A DNA stretch of 64,000 nucleotides from Microbispora hainanensis (lineage in GTDB: Bacteria; Actinomycetota; Actinomycetes; Streptosporangiales; Streptosporangiaceae). Position 1 is the stretch's first letter. Each line of letters starts with the position of its first letter. A program made the position numbers and the translations under genes. Below are positions 26,257 through 32,625 of this stretch, in pieces. The stretch is taken from NCBI RefSeq assembly GCF_006874475.1, contig NZ_VIRM01000006.1, positions 124,001-188,000 on the forward strand. Reading direction: 5' to 3'. Below the pieces are notes generated by a model. That model was not told where the DNA came from. It saw only the letters and a list, made by a program, of their open reading frames with translations, and did no database searches.

Positions 26257-27150
26257 TCAGCTCGTGCTCTTCTCCAGGGCGGCCCGGATGTCTCTGACGA
26301 GGGCGTGGTTCATGAAGGGAACGGCACGCTGGCTCGCCACTTCCTCCAGGATCCGGGTGCTGTGCGAGCGCTCGAAGATGGAGGTGAAGTGGCCCTCGAA
26401 TCTGCTTTGGCTCTCCTGATCGATCACCTCGAACGCCGCCGACAACGACCCCAGGGCCGTGGCGAAGTAGAAACCGACGATGACCTGCTTGTTCTCGCGA
26501 TGATAGGCGAAATACGGCACCTGGTCGTAGACCCTGATGTGGAGCTCGGCTCGTGGCGGTAAGGACGCCCCCTTGAGGAGGGCGTAGAGGCGTTCGCATA
26601 TGTCCAGCGAGGCGGCGAGATCGGTCAGCATCTGTTGCTCGTTCTGCCCCTCTTCTCTGGCCAACCTCGAAATGAGGTCCGACCTCGGGTCGAGGAACAG
26701 GATTCGGATGACCGACCCTTCCTGCAGCTTGCGGAGCATGACCTGTTCGACGGGCGCGAATTTGCGCGCGGTGAGATCCGCGTCGATCCGATGGAGCACG
26801 GAGCGGCCCGCGCAGAAGAGCTCGCAGGGCTGGGTGGAGGTGGCCCAGGAGTAGTAGCCGTCGTATCCGCGACGTTGCGGCGACACGAGACGGAGACCGA
26901 ACGGCGGCGGCTGTTGAAGCCGGTCCTGCAGCCGGGCGGCGATGTCCTCCGCCGCGTCTTCCGACTCGGTGCGGACGATCGCGACCTCGCGGAACGCGGA
27001 CACCGTTCCCGCCACGACGAACGAGACACCAAGTCCGCTGACCAGTGCGAGGAGACCTTTGGGGCTTTCGCCCGCCAGCAGCAGGAGGATCATGCCCCAC
27101 GGAACGAGGAAAATCGAGACCAGCAGACGGAAGAGTTTGTTGCGCTTCAT
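26257..27150 (-). CDS. Membrane-anchored cytoplasmic protein with PLD-like domain, unknown function
   Basis: 297-aa protein with two N-terminal membrane helices (about residues 8-24 and 30-52). A soluble region begins with a charged helix ('EDAAEDIAARLQDRL') and continues into an alpha/beta domain resembling phospholipase-D-like folds: 'ELFCAGRSVLHRIDADL', 'GSVIRILFLDPRSDLISRLA', 'RVYDQVPYFAYHRENKQVIVGFYF', 'HFTSIFERS'. No HKD catalytic motif is seen. The ATG at 27150 has AGAGG upstream. GC content is clearly lower than in the flanking genes, suggesting later acquisition. Similar folds occur in bacterial immune or STAND-associated effectors, but this is only resemblance. Confidence 0.75.
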   Translation of the reverse strand: MKRNKLFRLLVSIFLVPWGMILLLLAGESPKGLLALVSGLGVSFVVAGTVSAFREVAIVRTESEDAAEDIAARLQDRLQQPPPFGLRLVSPQRRGYDGYYSWATSTQPCELFCAGRSVLHRIDADLTARKFAPVEQVMLRKLQEGSVIRILFLDPRSDLISRLAREEGQNEQQMLTDLAASLDICERLYALLKGASLPPRAELHIRVYDQVPYFAYHRENKQVIVGFYFATALGSLSAAFEVIDQESQSRFEGHFTSIFERSHSTRILEEVASQRAVPFMNHALVRDIRAALEKSTS

Positions 27151-27209
27151 GCGTTCGCCTCTCGCCGGACTCTTCGGCTCACACATGGAACGTTCTATGA
27201 AGCGCTTTG

Positions 27210-27306: not shown

Positions 27307-28170
27307 TCAGTCGGCCTCGGCGCTGCCGTTCACGCGGAGCTTGCGGCGGGCCCGCTCGTAGAAGGTCGTCGTGCCGAGCCGCACCACGCGGGCGGCGGCG
27401 CGCAGCGCGGTCACCGTGAGCCGGTCGCCGGGACAAAGGTGGCCGCCGATGGTGCCGTCGACCTCCAGCGCGAGCTGGCCGCTGGTCGGGAGCACGTCGA
27501 GCGTCACCTCCTCGTCGGCCGACAGGACCAGCGCCCGGTTGAACGCCGAGTGGGCGGCGGCCGGGACGACGAGGAAGCCCTCGACCGTGGGGGAGACGAT
27601 CGGGCCTCCCGCCGAGAAGTTGTACGCGGTCGACCCCGTGGAGGTGGAGACGATCACGGCGTCGGCGGAGTAGCGGACGAACGGCTCGCCGTAGACCGAG
27701 ACGGACACCGCGGCGAGACCGTCGCCGGGGATGCGGACGAGGGCGATGTCGTTGAACGCGGTCACCATCCGGCCGTCGTGGCTCGTCGCCCGGACGGCCA
27801 TGCGCGGCTCGACCGTGTATCTGTGCTCGTCTATCGCCGACAGCGCGGGCGCCAGCTCGTCCACGTCGATCTCGGCGAGGAAGCCGAGCCGTCCCAGGTT
27901 GACCCCGAGGACGGGGGTCGGCCGCCCGGCGATCAAGCGCATCGTGCGCAGCATCGTGCCGTCGCCGCCGAGGCTGACGAGGAGGTCGGACCGCTTCACC
28001 AGCGTCTGGGCGTCCACCGCGATGGCGCTGCAGTCGATGCGCCCGACCTCGTCGGGCAGCCCCAGCACCGTGCAGTCCCGCTTGCGCGCCCACTCGACGA
28101 TCGTCTCGATCGCCTCCCGGGAGTCGCGTTGCGGGTGCAGGACGAGACCCACGGTGCTGACCATGCCCAT
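27307..28170 (-). CDS. nadK: NAD kinase
   Basis: 287-aa ATP-NAD kinase that makes NADP. The signature GGDGT is at residues 68-72, followed by 'GVNLGRLGFLAEID' and 'STSTGSTAYNFSAGGPIVSP', all characteristic. The C-terminus has 'LSADEEVTLDV' and 'VDGT'. The start is uncertain among GTG 28176, ATG 28170 and ATG 28164; a TACAGT -10-like box at 28182-28177 places a leaderless start at 28170. Its position beside redox and stress genes may mean it adjusts the NADP pool under stress; that is inference. Confidence 0.93.
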   Translation of the reverse strand: MGMVSTVGLVLHPQRDSREAIETIVEWARKRDCTVLGLPDEVGRIDCSAIAVDAQTLVKRSDLLVSLGGDGTMLRTMRLIAGRPTPVLGVNLGRLGFLAEIDVDELAPALSAIDEHRYTVEPRMAVRATSHDGRMVTAFNDIALVRIPGDGLAAVSVSVYGEPFVRYSADAVIVSTSTGSTAYNFSAGGPIVSPTVEGFLVVPAAAHSAFNRALVLSADEEVTLDVLPTSGQLALEVDGTIGGHLCPGDRLTVTALRAAARVVRLGTTTFYERARRKLRVNGSAEAD

Positions 28171-28201: not shown

Positions 28202-29650
28202 CTACCGAACGGCCTCCGGGGCCGCCTGGCCCAGGGGAAGGTAGACCCGGAACCGGGTGTCGCCGGGTCGTGAGTCCACCCGGATGTCCCCGTGGTGCTT
28301 GTTGACCACGATCCGATAGGAGATGTCCAGGCCCAGGCCGGTGCCCTCACCGACGGGCTTGGTGGTGAAGAACGGCTCGAAGATGCGGGGGCGGACCTCG
28401 GGCGCGATGCCGGTGCCGGTGTCGCCGACCTCGACGACCAGGTGGCCGTCCTTGCGCCGGGTGCGGAGGGTCAAGGTGCCCGTGCCGTCCATCGCGCCGA
28501 GCGCGTTGTCGATCAGGTTGGTCCACACCTGGTTCAGCTCGGCGGCGTACGCCGGGATGAGCGGCAGCGACCGGTCGTAGTCCTTGACCGTGCGGACGCC
28601 CTCGGGGATCTTGCCGTGCATCATGGTCAGCGTGGCGTCGAGCAGGTCGTGCACGTCGACCGTCTGGTGGGGGGCGCGGTCGAGCTGGGAGTACTGCTTG
28701 GCGGCGGCGACCAGGCCGGAGATCCGGTTGACCGCATCGTCGATCTCGCACATCAGCAGCTCGGTGTCCACCGTGTAGGTGAGCCATCGGACCGCGGACT
28801 CCAGGTTCTCCTCGCCCACCGCCCCGGCGATCTGGTCGAGCCAGGTCGCGTCGAGGCCGCCGGCCACCAGCGTCGCCGCCAGGTCCCAGCCGCCGACGAT
28901 GTCGTGGTCGTCCAGCCAGTCGGCGACCGCGTCCTCGGCGTCGGAGCGCGCCAGCGGCGTGAGGTCGGGGGCGGAGGCCGACCGCTTGACCGCGTTCTCC
29001 TGGAGCTCCACCAGGTCGTGCAGCTGGCTGCCGTCCAGCCGCCCGTCGGCGATCATGGCGAGCTTGTGCCGCATGCCCGCCACCCGCTCGCGCAGCGCCG
29101 ACGTCGCCCGTACGGCGGCGGCCGCCGGGTTGTTCAGCTCGTGGGTCAGACCGGCCGACAGCGAGCCGAGCGCGAGGAGCCGCTCGCGTTCGCCGACGAT
29201 CGTCTGGACGGTGCGCATGCCGAGGAACAGCCCCTCAAGCAGGTGCATCGCCATCGGGAACCACTCGCGCACGCACTCGGCGATCACCTCGGCAGGCAGC
29301 ACGAAGAACGAGGCGTCGGTGACCGCGGTCAGCGAGTTCAGGTAGAGCTGAGAGAACTCGCCGGCGATGTACGCCTGGGTGGCGCCGCCGTACACGCCGC
29401 GCTGGCCGGTGCGGCTGACCTCGACGTCGTCGCCCTGCACCCGCCTGCTCATCGCGACCGTGCCGTTCAGCAGCACGAAGAAGCAGGTGGCGGGGTCGCC
29501 CTCGGTGTAGACGCGGGTGCCGGCGAGCCGCCGCTCGACCCGTCCCGCCTCCGACAGCCGGGCGAGCTGCGCGTCGTCCAGCGCCTCGAACAGGAACAGC
29601 GTGCGCAGCTCGTCGGGGGGCAGCGTCGGCTCATGGGGATGGTCGGTCAT
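28202..29650 (-). CDS. Sensor histidine kinase with N-terminal cyclic-nucleotide-binding domain
   Basis: 482-aa soluble kinase. A CNB/Crp-like domain (about 20-130: 'LFLFEALDDAQLARLSEAG...GDPATCFFVLLNGTVAMSRR'), then a signalling helix and H-box with His170 in 'LTHELNNPAAAA', a long helical insert, and the HATPase domain with N-box 'NQVWTNLIDNALGAM', 'GDTGTGI' and 'GTGLGLDIS'. There are no membrane helices, so it senses something inside the cell, perhaps a cyclic nucleotide. The ATG at 29650 has GGAGG and overlaps the stop of the upstream response-regulator/reductase gene by 4 bp, so the two should be made in fixed ratio and act as a pair. Confidence 0.93.
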   Translation of the reverse strand: MTDHPHEPTLPPDELRTLFLFEALDDAQLARLSEAGRVERRLAGTRVYTEGDPATCFFVLLNGTVAMSRRVQGDDVEVSRTGQRGVYGGATQAYIAGEFSQLYLNSLTAVTDASFFVLPAEVIAECVREWFPMAMHLLEGLFLGMRTVQTIVGERERLLALGSLSAGLTHELNNPAAAAVRATSALRERVAGMRHKLAMIADGRLDGSQLHDLVELQENAVKRSASAPDLTPLARSDAEDAVADWLDDHDIVGGWDLAATLVAGGLDATWLDQIAGAVGEENLESAVRWLTYTVDTELLMCEIDDAVNRISGLVAAAKQYSQLDRAPHQTVDVHDLLDATLTMMHGKIPEGVRTVKDYDRSLPLIPAYAAELNQVWTNLIDNALGAMDGTGTLTLRTRRKDGHLVVEVGDTGTGIAPEVRPRIFEPFFTTKPVGEGTGLGLDISYRIVVNKHHGDIRVDSRPGDTRFRVYLPLGQAAPEAVR

Positions 29651-31305
29651 GGAGCCTCCAGATAACGGTGGACGAGCGAGACCGCCATGGCGCCCTCGCC
29701 CACGGCCGAGGCGACGCGCTTGACCGACCCGGCCCGCACGTCGCCCGCGGCGAAGACGCCGGGCATGCTCGACTCCAGGTGATAGGGGTCCCTGGACAGT
29801 GCCCACCCGGGCGGGCGGCGGCCGTCGGCGAGCAGGTCGGAGCCGGTCAGCACGTAGCCGCCGCCGTCGCGGGCGACCACGTCGCCGAGCCAGTCGGTGC
29901 GCGGTTCCGCCCCGATGAAGACGAACAGCCACGACGCCGGCACGGTGGTCGTCTGTCCGGTCCTCCCGTCGCACAGGGTCAGGCGCTCCAGGTGGTCGCG
30001 GCCCTCGCCGGCGACCACCTGCGTGCGCGGATGGACCTCGATCGAGGGAATGGCCTCGATCTGATCGATCAAATAACGCGACATCGACCGGGTGAGGTCC
30101 TCTCCCCGGATGAGGACATGCACTTTGCGGGCGTAGCGGGAGAAGTGCACCGCCGCCTGCCCCGCCGAGTTCGCCCCGCCGACGATGTAGACCTCTTCTC
30201 CGGCGCAGCTCGGGGCCTCGGTGGCGGCCGCGCCGTAGAAGACGCCCCGGCCGGTCAGGTCGGCCAGGCCGGGCGCGTCCAGCAGCCGGTAGGACACGCC
30301 GGTCGCCAGCACGACCGTGTGCGCCGTCACGGCGGTGCCGTCGTGGAAGCGCAGCAGGGTGGCCGAGCCGGTCCGTTCGAGGCCGACGACCTCGCGGGTG
30401 GTGAGCAGCTCGGTGTTGAACTTCAGTGCCTGCCTGCGGGCGCGGTCGGTGAGCTGGGCGCCGGAGATCCCGTCGGGAAAGCCGAGGTAGTTCTCGATCC
30501 GGCTGCTCTGCCCGGCCTGGCCGCCCGTGGCCCGCTGCTCCACGAGCAGGGTGCGCAGCCCTTCGGACGCGCCGTAGACGGCGGCGCCGAGGCCGGCGGG
30601 TCCCGCGCCGATCACGGCGAGGTCGTAGAGATCCGAGGCGGGGGTGGTGGCCATGCCGACGTGCGCGGCGAGGTCGGCCTCCGTGGGCCTTGCCAGGGCC
30701 TTGCCGTCCGTGGTGATCACCACCGGCACGTCCGCCTCGCACATCCCGGCGGCCGCCAGCAGGCGGGCGCCCTCGGCCTCGTCGGCCCGCAGCCACCGGT
30801 ACGGCACGAGGTTGCGGGCGAGGAAGTCCCGCACCGTGAACGAGTGCGCCGACCAGCGATGTCCCACGACCTTGGTTTCCGGCATCGTCACGGCGGGGGT
30901 GGCGAGCCACGCCTCCAGCAGTGAGTCCAGCACCGGGTAGAGCTTCTCCTCCGGCGGGTTCCACGGCTTGAGCAGGTAGTGGTCGAGATCGACGATGTTG
31001 ATCGCGTTGATGGCGGCGTCGGTGTCCGCGTAGGCGGTCAGCAGCACCCTGCGCGCCAGCGGGTAGACGTCCATGGCCGCCTCGAGGAACTCGATGCCGT
31101 TCATCTGGGGCATCCGATAGTCGGCCAGGAGGACGGCGACCTGCTCGCCGCGCAGCTTGATCTCGCGCAACGCGTCGAGCGCACTGGGGCCGGACTCGGC
31201 TCGGATCACCCGGTAGCGGTCGCCGTATCGGCGGCGGATGTCACGAGCCACGGCCCGGGAGACGGACGGGTCGTCATCGACGGTGAGGATCGCGGCATTC
31301 TGCAC
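29647..31305 (-). CDS. Response regulator fused to thioredoxin-reductase-like flavoprotein without redox cysteines
   Basis: 552-aa fusion. A receiver domain (1-125) has Asp10/Asp11, phospho-acceptor Asp62 ('LLADYRMP'), Thr90 and Lys113. Next comes a glutaredoxin-like segment (about 145-218) in which the CxxC is replaced ('HRWSAHSF'), then a TrxR fold (about 225-552) with FAD motif 'VIGAGPAGLG', NADPH motif 'VGGANSAGQAA' and C-terminal 'FAAGDVR'. The usual redox pair is gone: 'FYGAA' (357-360 and on) stands where FYCATC is expected. So it may bind FAD and NADPH but cannot reduce thioredoxin in the normal way. GTG at 31305; divergent from the CBS-BON gene with a DevR-like dyad between. Confidence 0.92.
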   Translation of the reverse strand: MQNAAILTVDDDPSVSRAVARDIRRRYGDRYRVIRAESGPSALDALREIKLRGEQVAVLLADYRMPQMNGIEFLEAAMDVYPLARRVLLTAYADTDAAINAINIVDLDHYLLKPWNPPEEKLYPVLDSLLEAWLATPAVTMPETKVVGHRWSAHSFTVRDFLARNLVPYRWLRADEAEGARLLAAAGMCEADVPVVITTDGKALARPTEADLAAHVGMATTPASDLYDLAVIGAGPAGLGAAVYGASEGLRTLLVEQRATGGQAGQSSRIENYLGFPDGISGAQLTDRARRQALKFNTELLTTREVVGLERTGSATLLRFHDGTAVTAHTVVLATGVSYRLLDAPGLADLTGRGVFYGAAATEAPSCAGEEVYIVGGANSAGQAAVHFSRYARKVHVLIRGEDLTRSMSRYLIDQIEAIPSIEVHPRTQVVAGEGRDHLERLTLCDGRTGQTTTVPASWLFVFIGAEPRTDWLGDVVARDGGGYVLTGSDLLADGRRPPGWALSRDPYHLESSMPGVFAAGDVRAGSVKRVASAVGEGAMAVSLVHRYLEAP

Positions 31306-31348
31306 ATCTCACACGGTACTGGTGGGTCTTCGCTGATTGGCACCCCTG

Positions 31349-31362
31349 AGGACATAGGTCCC
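31349..31362. promoter_or_regulatory. DevR/DosR-like dyad between reductase and CBS-BON genes
   Basis: AGGAC-ATAG-GTCCC fits the core GGGAC-N4-GTCCC of actinobacterial dormancy (DevR/DosR) boxes with one mismatch; the outer positions match poorly. Neighbouring gene content (CBS, ADH, PPOX) is also typical of such regulons. Confidence 0.5.
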
Positions 31363-31450
31363 ACGGGAGGGGGACGTTCGCCGGTCGCCCCGCGGCCGGT
31401 CGTGACGAAGGCTGGGGAGACAAGGCTGGGGGAGACGAGGGAGGCCGGCC

Positions 31451-32149
31451 ATGCCGATGACCGTGAGCGACGTCATGAACAGGTTCGTCGTCGCCGTCGA
31501 GGCGGCGGCCTCGTTCACCGACGTGGTCACCGCGATGTGCCGCTTCCATGTGGGGGCGGTCCCCGTCGTGGACGGGGACCGGCGGGTCATCGGCATGGTG
31601 AGCGACAGCGACCTGCTGCTCAAGGGCCTCGACAGGCGGCCCGGCGATCTGATCATCGAGGGGGCGTCCCGCTGCAGGGAGCGCAGGAAGGCGAGCGGAC
31701 GCGCCGCCGCCCAGATCATGACCAGCCCCGCGATCACGGTCACCGAGGACACCACGCTGCGGCGGGCGGCCTGCCTGATGCGCCGCAACAGGATCAAGGA
31801 GCTGCCCATCGTGGACGGCGAGACCGGCCGCATCACCGGGCTGGTCAAACAGTCGGACCTGATCAGGGCGTTCTGCCGGCCCGCGGAGGACCTCCGCGAC
31901 GACGTCGTCGAGGTGGTGTCGCGCTACTCCCCGCAGTGTTCCGTACGCGTCGAGGACGGGATCGTCCACCTCGTCGGCGGCGTGGCACGGCGTTCCCAGA
32001 TCCGCGCACTGATCGAGGAGGTCTGGCAGGTGGACGGCGTGGTGGACGTCGACTCCTCCATCACCTATGAGAAGGACGACCTGGACCGGGCCGTCCCCGC
32101 GGGCGCGCCCCGGTGGACCGGCTCTGCGGACGGCGGGAAGGACCGATGA
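31451..32149 (+). CDS. CBS-domain pair protein with C-terminal BON domain
   Basis: 232-aa cytoplasmic protein: two CBS motifs (about 4-60 'VSDVMNRFVVAVEAAASFTDVV', and 90-145 'AQIMTSPAITVTEDTTLRRA') forming a Bateman module that binds adenine nucleotides, then a BON domain (about 150-215, 'YSPQCSVRVEDGIVHLVGGV'). CBS-BON proteins are common members of actinobacterial hypoxia/dormancy gene sets. The ATG at 31451 follows GGGAGG. Translationally coupled (ATGA) to the next CBS gene. Confidence 0.92.
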   Translation: MPMTVSDVMNRFVVAVEAAASFTDVVTAMCRFHVGAVPVVDGDRRVIGMVSDSDLLLKGLDRRPGDLIIEGASRCRERRKASGRAAAQIMTSPAITVTEDTTLRRAACLMRRNRIKELPIVDGETGRITGLVKQSDLIRAFCRPAEDLRDDVVEVVSRYSPQCSVRVEDGIVHLVGGVARRSQIRALIEEVWQVDGVVDVDSSITYEKDDLDRAVPAGAPRWTGSADGGKDR

Positions 32150-32625
32150 GCGTCGAGACCATGACCGCGTCCGAGGTGATGACCCGGACGCTCGTCACCG
32201 TGGAGCCGGAGGAGTCGCCGCTGATGGCCTGGGAGCTCATGTGGCGGGCCGGCGTCCACCACCTCCCGGTCGTGGACGCCTGCTGCCGGCTCGTCGGCGT
32301 GCTCCAGCGGGAGGACATCGCCGCGCACTGGTCGGGCGGCCCCGCCGAGCAGTCCATGACGGCGGTGCGCACGCTCCTGCAGGGGCGGCGCTGTCCCCGG
32401 GTCCTCCCGGACGATCCGCTGTCCGAGGTCGCCGCGCTGATGGTCGACGCCGACTGCGGCGCGGTCCCCGTGCTGGGTCCTGACGAGGTCCTGCGGGGCC
32501 TGGTCACCACCACCGACATGCTGATGGCGCTGGCCGGGAGGACGGCGCGGCCGGCCGGCGACTCCACGAACGTGAAGGGCGGCCTGTTCCGCCTGGAGCC
32601 GGTGCCGTCGGCCCCCTGTCCATGA
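32146..32625 (+). CDS. CBS-domain pair protein
   Basis: 159-aa Bateman-type protein: CBS1 at about 5-60 ('ASEVMTRTLVTVEPEESPLMAWELMWRAGVHHLPVVD') and CBS2 at about 75-135 ('CPRVLPDDPLSEVAALMVDADCGAVPVL'). The ATG at 32146 overlaps the CBS-BON stop. Both proteins probably report the ATP/AMP state, perhaps in response to the signals handled by the divergent kinase/reductase pair. Its 3' end is a short repeat carrying the stop codon. Confidence 0.9.
   Translation: MSVETMTASEVMTRTLVTVEPEESPLMAWELMWRAGVHHLPVVDACCRLVGVLQREDIAAHWSGGPAEQSMTAVRTLLQGRRCPRVLPDDPLSEVAALMVDADCGAVPVLGPDEVLRGLVTTTDMLMALAGRTARPAGDSTNVKGGLFRLEPVPSAPCP

Follow-up and report, generated by a model that had tools for sequence, protein, structure and literature searches.

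A 64,000-nucleotide stretch of Microbispora hainanensis DNA (contig NZ_VIRM01000006.1, positions 124,001 to 188,000; the whole stretch is called the window) encodes a conserved two-component system in which the response regulator is fused to a thioredoxin reductase (TrxR)-like flavoprotein and the kinase carries a cyclic-nucleotide-binding (CNB) domain. The pair is real and conserved, and it belongs to a regulator type that is known and already catalogued but uncharacterised. We observed the pairing itself, the domain content of both proteins, the loss of both CxxC motifs from the regulator, the conservation of its cofactor motifs, and the reuse of the same module either bare or under a CNB domain. 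Our preferred reading, which we hold to be moderately probable, is that within a cognate two-component system phosphorylation gates an NAD(P)H-dependent flavoenzyme that works without a dithiol; the phosphotransfer and the gating are steps that we infer.

Most response regulators act on DNA, and few enzymatic outputs have known chemistry. The output seen here descends from TrxR but would lack that enzyme's usual way of reducing thioredoxin, and it has stayed with a kinase of its own from Actinomycetota through to Cyanobacteria. The target or the signal of the module, once found, would explain a regulator type that is so far listed in censuses, and would show how NAD(P)H enters two-component signalling. 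The window genome is 8.7 Mb, its closest named relatives are Microbispora, and protein identity to M. siamensis is 95%. The features of the pair, all on the minus strand, are as follows.

29647..31305, minus: response regulator (receiver, thioredoxin fold and TrxR-like flavoprotein), 552 aa, GTG start
30952..31290, minus: receiver domain, residues 6-118 (Pfam Response_reg)
31120..31122, minus: codon of D62, the predicted phospho-acceptor aspartate (conserved residue)
30661..30876, minus: thioredoxin-fold, glutaredoxin (Grx)-like domain, residues 144-215, SxxS replacing CxxC (predicted secondary structure)
29692..30627, minus: TrxR-like FAD/NAD(P)H module, residues 227-538 (Pfam Pyr_redox_2, Foldseek, alignment)
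30223..30234, minus: site of the lost TrxR CxxC, G358 to A361 (alignment to solved TrxRs)
30205..30207, minus: codon of C367, the sole regulator cysteine invariant across 100 actinobacterial sequences
28202..29650, minus: CNB histidine kinase, 482 aa, ATG start
29270..29599, minus: CNB-fold domain, about residues 18-127, without the canonical cAMP Glu and Arg (Pfam, model, conservation)
29141..29143, minus: codon of H170, the predicted phosphorylated histidine (THELNNP; conserved residue)
28817..29032, minus: helical insert between the two DHp helices, residues 207-278 (model and conservation)
28229..28543, minus: HATPase_c domain, residues 370-474 (Pfam)

Conservation and distribution of the pair

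Pfam assigns Response_reg and Pyr_redox_2 to the regulator and cNMP_binding and HATPase_c to the kinase. An earlier, sequence-only reading of this stretch had described the pair and two divergent CBS genes; all four lie where it put them, with Pfam domains in agreement, and regulator stop and kinase start, which it called translationally coupled, overlap as ATGA. The arrangement is widespread. Across 80 actinobacterial loci (L027-L106) the kinase directly follows the regulator on the same strand in 78; of the two exceptions one has the kinase about 4 kb downstream (L100) and the other stops at a contig end (L105). A stop/start overlap of the form NTGA occurs in 58 of the 79 loci with a kinase, and TGATG in 8 of the other 21. 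Adjacency also holds for 28 of a further 29 loci, the 29th being cut by a contig end; these were the best-scoring matches of a phylum sample, down to about 54% identity, the more distant matches of that sample being at about 40-54%, and genomes may be partly common to the two sets. The module itself is present in 53 of the 296 genomes of that sample.

In a plasmid collection 112 records matched, of which ten cover at least 80% of the query; all ten were inspected, and the kinase is adjacent in nine. These ten loci come from Actinomycetota, Deinococcota, Cyanobacteriota and Pseudomonadota, and beyond the actinobacteria the pair occurs in Cyanobacteria, Deinococcus and Burkholderiales. Nostoc edaphicum is the exception (L136:7662-11678), with a transposase and a bestrophin gene between regulator and kinase, and its kinase carries a receiver where others have the CNB domain; the partner kinases of Caballeronia, Deinococcus aetherius, Nostoc sp. 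C052 and Gloeothece have CNB. Caballeronia (L131:4469-5899), D. aetherius (L132:2020-3417) and Paraburkholderia (L138:4427-5833) have, upstream of the regulator, a second kinase akin to the partner kinase, and thus two kinases and one regulator.

Regulator and kinase trees were compared over a diverse set of 46 taxa, chosen by us and used for conservation counts as well as for trees. They agree closely (Mantel r 0.92, a value reached by 0 of 2000 permutations), a correlation to which shared ancestry contributes. Conserved adjacency, overlapping starts, congruent trees and intact phosphotransfer residues thus support kinase and regulator being a cognate pair.

A regulator without its dithiols

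Residue counts for the regulator refer to 100 actinobacterial sequences, made up of the window and 99 loci of which 94 are distinct (95 distinct overall), and to the 46 diverse taxa. The receiver is intact, with D10, D11, D62, T90 and K113 conserved in 100/100 and 46/46. Behind it, residues 144-215 have the predicted order b-a-b-a-b-b-a of a thioredoxin fold in an AlphaFold model (34 sequences, mean pLDDT 76.7, pTM 0.49); this Grx-like part has no Pfam match even at E 10, a threshold at which HMMER filters still drop most weak matches. The top whole-chain Foldseek match of the regulator is E. coli AhpF (4xvg, E 1.7e-29), and the other matches listed are mostly thioredoxin reductases. AhpF likewise has a thioredoxin-fold module followed by a TrxR core, whereas it has no receiver; its whole-chain root-mean-square deviation of 22 A implies that the parts match and their arrangement does not. 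AhpF has CxxC in both parts.

The regulator has CxxC in neither, as the sequence-only reading had claimed. On alignment to solved TrxRs, the redox-active cysteines fall on G358 and A361. Position 358 is G in every regulator of both sets, and position 361 is never C (A, S, L, T, V or M in the actinobacterial set). The glutaredoxin/thioredoxin-type site, where CxxC or CxxS would be expected, is S152xxS155, with Ser at both positions in 100/100 actinobacterial regulators; among the diverse ones S152 is kept in 45/46 and S155 in 39/46, with one C. The best NCBIfam match is TIGR01292, the low-Mr thioredoxin reductase family, which like the regulator has Rossmann domains for FAD and NAD(P)H but, unlike it, a CxxC. 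The regulator scores 205.7 bits against a cut-off of 343.45; a canonical TrxR with CATC elsewhere in the window genome scores 404.5 against that same cut-off.

Describing the reductase part as dead, as had been done earlier, is nevertheless too strong, right as it is about the lost TrxR dithiols. The cofactor motifs GxGxxG, NSA, R400 and GD, predicted to bind FAD and NAD(P)H, are present in 46/46 diverse regulators, and a single cysteine, C367, is kept in 100/100 actinobacterial and 44/46 diverse sequences, with V in D. aetherius and in locus L166. By model and alignment C367 comes six residues after the place of the second CxxC cysteine, at the distal end of the helix predicted there. A Pfam search of the regulator found no DNA-binding domain. 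A role in anti-phage defence was considered and dropped, five proteins giving zero matches in PADLOC.

Relation to described regulators

The combination of a receiver with TrxR has been called a 'Mycobacterium-like' REC-thioredoxin reductase (PMC5847659). In Streptomyces coelicolor, SCO7298 is tabulated, without names, among the TrxB-type regulators, its partner being SCO7297 and the gene order response regulator-histidine kinase (PMC9739842). The window pair has the same layout, an N-terminal receiver on a TrxR-like module with a kinase gene adjacent and in the same order, and from architecture and gene order SCO7298 would be the orthologue of the window regulator. If so, the question could be put to the test in a laboratory strain through SCO7298 and SCO7297. 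Expression of sco7298 (trxB3) is induced by polysulfide, also without AdpA, an induction common to true thioredoxin genes and sco7298 (PMC9952706), and SCO7298 is upregulated by acid shock (PMC2631018). Beyond such expression data the literature listings and passages covered gave nothing on what the pair does, and the passages on TrxB-type regulators mention no function, missing CxxC, CNB kinase, split DHp or NAD-kinase link.

The kinase and its CNB-fold domain

The partner protein has the phospho-accepting His and the N, G1, F and G2 boxes of a histidine kinase. H170, N382, G412, G436 and G438 are conserved in 46/46 diverse kinases and N378 and D410 in 45/46; H170 and F424 are each conserved in 97/97 actinobacterial kinases. 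Pfam HisKA scores it at 13.5 bits, under the cut-off of 26.9, and two cyanobacterial partner kinases (20.1 and 21.5 bits) also fall under it. The model (32 sequences, pLDDT 77.6, pTM 0.39) lays the protein out as a CNB fold, a 73-residue helix (132-204) bearing H170, an insert (207-278), a second long helix (283-323) and the ATPase domain. In this model the DHp hairpin appears split by a helical domain, an insert that is kept across phyla (E239 in 46/46, W255 in 44/46).

The CNB domain was earlier taken to be a cAMP input. Proteins that bind cAMP carry Glu and Arg at the equivalent phosphate-binding-cassette positions. The kinase has instead G at position 89 and Y at position 103, each in 97/97 actinobacterial sequences; among the 46 taxa, in one of which (N. 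edaphicum) a receiver replaces the CNB domain, position 89 is G in 40 and A in 6, and position 103 is Y in 36 and R once. The Glu column was placed by alignment and the Arg column aligned by eye. On these cassette residues cAMP control of the kinase is rejected as unsupported, and the CNB domain may have another ligand. Cysteine C56 of the kinase is found in 92/97 actinobacterial and 26/46 diverse sequences and is thus mostly actinobacterial.

Other settings of the TrxR-like module

Three ARRANGEMENTS of the module were found: under a receiver, under a CNB domain, or bare. The second-best match in the window genome (G000:C177, L002:1489-3159) is a 556-aa protein made of CNB, thioredoxin-fold and TrxR-like parts, 47% identical to the window regulator over residues 144-550. 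It corresponds to proteins annotated as CNB domain-containing thioredoxin-disulfide reductase, in which the same module carries CNB where the window regulator has its receiver. The CxxC is also lost in the four CNB forms that were aligned. In Paraburkholderia, Cupriavidus and Burkholderia the module stands bare, in proteins annotated at 404-423 aa. The module tree was built without an outgroup, and the order in which receiver and CNB were gained is not read from it. The strongest case for a regulated output is that one module stands either directly under a CNB domain or under a receiver that a CNB kinase would serve, and we infer that the module looks like a portable one.

This arrangement also bears on the direction in which the signal runs. 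The TrxR-like module could instead be an input, the state of its flavin or of NAD(P)H tuning receiver dephosphorylation or kinase activity, so that the pair would sense redox state and have another output, not linked to it. Several observations fit such a sensor: neither redox domain has a CxxC, the cofactor motifs are retained, the regulator is without a recognisable DNA-binding domain in Pfam, and Caballeronia, Paraburkholderia and D. aetherius have that second kinase of the same family upstream of the regulator. The CNB form, however, joins a sensor-type domain to the same module within one protein, which is simpler to understand as a sensor plus an output, and we regard the input role as unlikely.

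A different alternative keeps the module as an output and restores its sulfur chemistry: C367 alone, together with thioredoxin or mycothiol, would reduce persulfides or mixed disulfides. In its favour are the near invariance of C367 and the surroundings of the CNB form, which lies downstream of ClpB and thioredoxin (TrxC-like) genes in the window genome and likewise in plasmid loci of Rhodococcus pyridinivorans and Streptomyces angustmyceticus; this neighbourhood was seen in 3 of 4 CNB loci, Deinococcus aquaticus being the one in which it was not. Polysulfide induction of sco7298, a gene for a TrxB-type regulator, points the same way (PMC9952706, PMC9739842). Against this, that induction is common to true thioredoxin genes, the orthology of SCO7298 to the window protein is itself presumptive, and C367 is far along its helix from the usual dithiol. 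It is also replaceable, by V in the two regulators named above, and of seven CNB or bare forms five have C at this position, one has T and one has I. These variants weaken C367 as a strictly required active site, and we consider a single-cysteine reductase improbable.

A gene for a UBP-type zinc-finger protein recurs beside the module and, like the NAD-kinase paralogue described below, was omitted from the sequence-only reading. In 11/80 genome loci it comes directly after the kinase, as it does in S. fungicidicus, Tsukamurella and Nocardia, and of the 6 plasmid loci inspected that have a CNB or bare form, 4 have it next to the module. It was not seen after the kinase in Microbispora loci, nor found near the CNB form of the window genome. 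Small UBP-type zinc-finger genes lie at L134:9098-9451, L135:9131-9481, L173:4289-4561, L174:2274-2540, L175:2288-2551 and L177:2496-2768, and the neighbour occurs with all three arrangements, receiver, CNB and bare. We know of no function for such a gene in bacteria.

The NAD-kinase paralogue

Downstream of the pair, 31 nt after the kinase stop, lies a third gene on the same strand.

27307..28170, minus: NAD-kinase paralogue, third in the likely operon

A minus-strand operon running from the regulator through the CNB kinase to the NAD kinase is likely, and the gene for a DUF5919 protein immediately beyond it (26257-27186, minus) may be part of that transcript. The paralogue is 36% identical to the other NAD kinase in the window genome. 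It adjoins the pair in 12/80 loci in two arrangements: after the kinase in Microbispora (5 loci) and Planotetraspora (2), and before the regulator in 5 loci in all, from Dactylosporangium, Paractinoplanes (2), Spirilliplanes and Actinoplanes, whose NAD kinases are 65-74% identical to that of the window. Outside the genus, 9 of the 26 genomes that have the TrxR module, CNB-only genomes included, also have the paralogue, vs none of the 19 that lack the module (Fisher p 0.006, a value that takes no account of ancestry or genome size). In the phylum sample it occurs only in the window's own genome, 1/296 vs 53/296 for the module, which marks the NAD kinase as a local addition. Association with the pair is suggestive and local.

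A proposed phosphorylation-gated flavoenzyme

Taken together, the pieces would fit into a simple sequence of events. The soluble kinase would autophosphorylate on H170 upon a signal, probably not cAMP, read by its N-terminal CNB-fold domain. From H170 the phosphate would pass to D62 of the receiver, as the conserved residues suggest, and phosphorylation may then shift how the receiver and thioredoxin fold dock on the FAD/NAD(P)H core. Such a change in docking would turn the non-dithiol NAD(P)H-dependent flavoenzyme on or off, electrons presumably moving from NAD(P)H to FAD and on to a partner other than an internal disulfide. Judging from its linkage, the NAD-kinase paralogue of the likely operon could supply NADP(H).

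Several points weigh against this gated-flavoenzyme reading. The regulator has no known enzymatic activity or substrate. The structural models are moderate, with pLDDT below 50 at residues 259-281 of the regulator, near the flavin motif, and model confidence below 50 at residues 156-170 of the kinase, around H170. The coenzyme could be NADH, given that position 401 is G in 38, A in 4 and S in 4 of the 46 taxa; in many NADPH-dependent TrxRs, including 5uwy, this position is the Arg of the HRR motif. The NADPH-dependent TrxR 7p9e, however, also has Gly at the equivalent position in the alignment, and position 401 is thus compatible with either coenzyme. Finally, outside the genus 9 genomes combine the module with the NAD-kinase paralogue, and in 8 of them the two are on different contigs, so that linkage of the NAD kinase to the pair is not general.

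The idea can be extended, tentatively, and with chances that we would put well short of even, to a class of phosphorylation-gated flavoenzymes spread over at least four phyla. Its members would have the AhpF domain order with both dithiols lost (SxxS and Gxxx) and one cysteine mostly kept, would be commanded either by a split-DHp kinase through the receiver or by a CNB-fold domain, and would act through a partner, for example thioredoxin or the UBP zinc-finger protein that is often their neighbour, and not through a disulfide of their own.

The CBS genes and the dyad

Three further features lie upstream of the regulator. The two CBS genes share an ATGA overlap and diverge from the regulator-kinase pair; Pfam finds CBS and BON in the first protein and CBS in the second.

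31349..31362, no strand: DevR/OsdR-like dyad AGGACATAGGTCCC, conserved footprint
31451..32149, plus: CBS-BON protein, lineage-specific neighbour
32146..32625, plus: CBS-pair protein, lineage-specific neighbour

It had been proposed that the CBS proteins belong to the system and that the locus combines cAMP through the CNB domain, NADPH through the TrxR-like module and ATP/AMP through the CBS proteins. Every domain is physically present, and the shared intergenic region has a conserved dyad. The distribution is nevertheless narrow: 7/80 loci have CBS-BON beside the pair, every one of them from Microbispora or Planotetraspora, and 5/80 have the second CBS gene there. Among relatives CBS-BON was seen in 14 of 19 loci (L008-L026, which have short flanks and five of which repeat other loci), and L008 has the pair, no dyad, and no CBS genes seen in its flanks. 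On distribution the CBS proteins are rejected as core parts. With a CNB domain that lacks the cAMP-contact Glu and Arg, and CBS genes in so few loci, joint signalling of this kind is unsupported, and we consider it very improbable.

The dyad fared better. Its form is AGGACATAGGTCCC in the window and GGG[AC]C[AG]TAGGTCCC in most other loci. An alignment of 23 rows, reduced to 18 distinct loci by dropping five repeats, shows it retained in 15. It is absent from L021, though CBS-BON is present there, and L030 has a variant, GGGTCCAAGGTCCC, placed nearer the CBS gene. All 6 matches to the pattern across L027-L106 fall at the dyad site, the pattern having been derived from these loci. In the window the bare pattern GGACN4GTCC occurs no more often than chance predicts (2 sites vs 3.95 expected); a chance site is rejected because the dyad is conserved between species and not because of this count. 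Mean conservation is 0.95 in the dyad and 0.49 and 0.76 in the flanks, figures not relied on since the rows were picked by the pattern itself. Genome-wide, two dyad-related patterns are not enriched (91 vs control 205; 9 vs control 65).

The dyad described earlier as DevR-like is thus present and conserved between species, and on alignment it is a conserved footprint found mostly where the CBS genes are and not wherever the pair is. As a palindrome it is laid out like the OsdR consensus AGGGCCGATCGGCCCT of OsdR/DevR dormancy sites (PMC5069765). A conserved dyad in the promoter is what a DevR/OsdR regulon would present, and this makes it a candidate site. A second conserved block, GACGTTCG (window 31373-31380), lies 10 nt beyond the dyad in most aligned loci from Microbispora.

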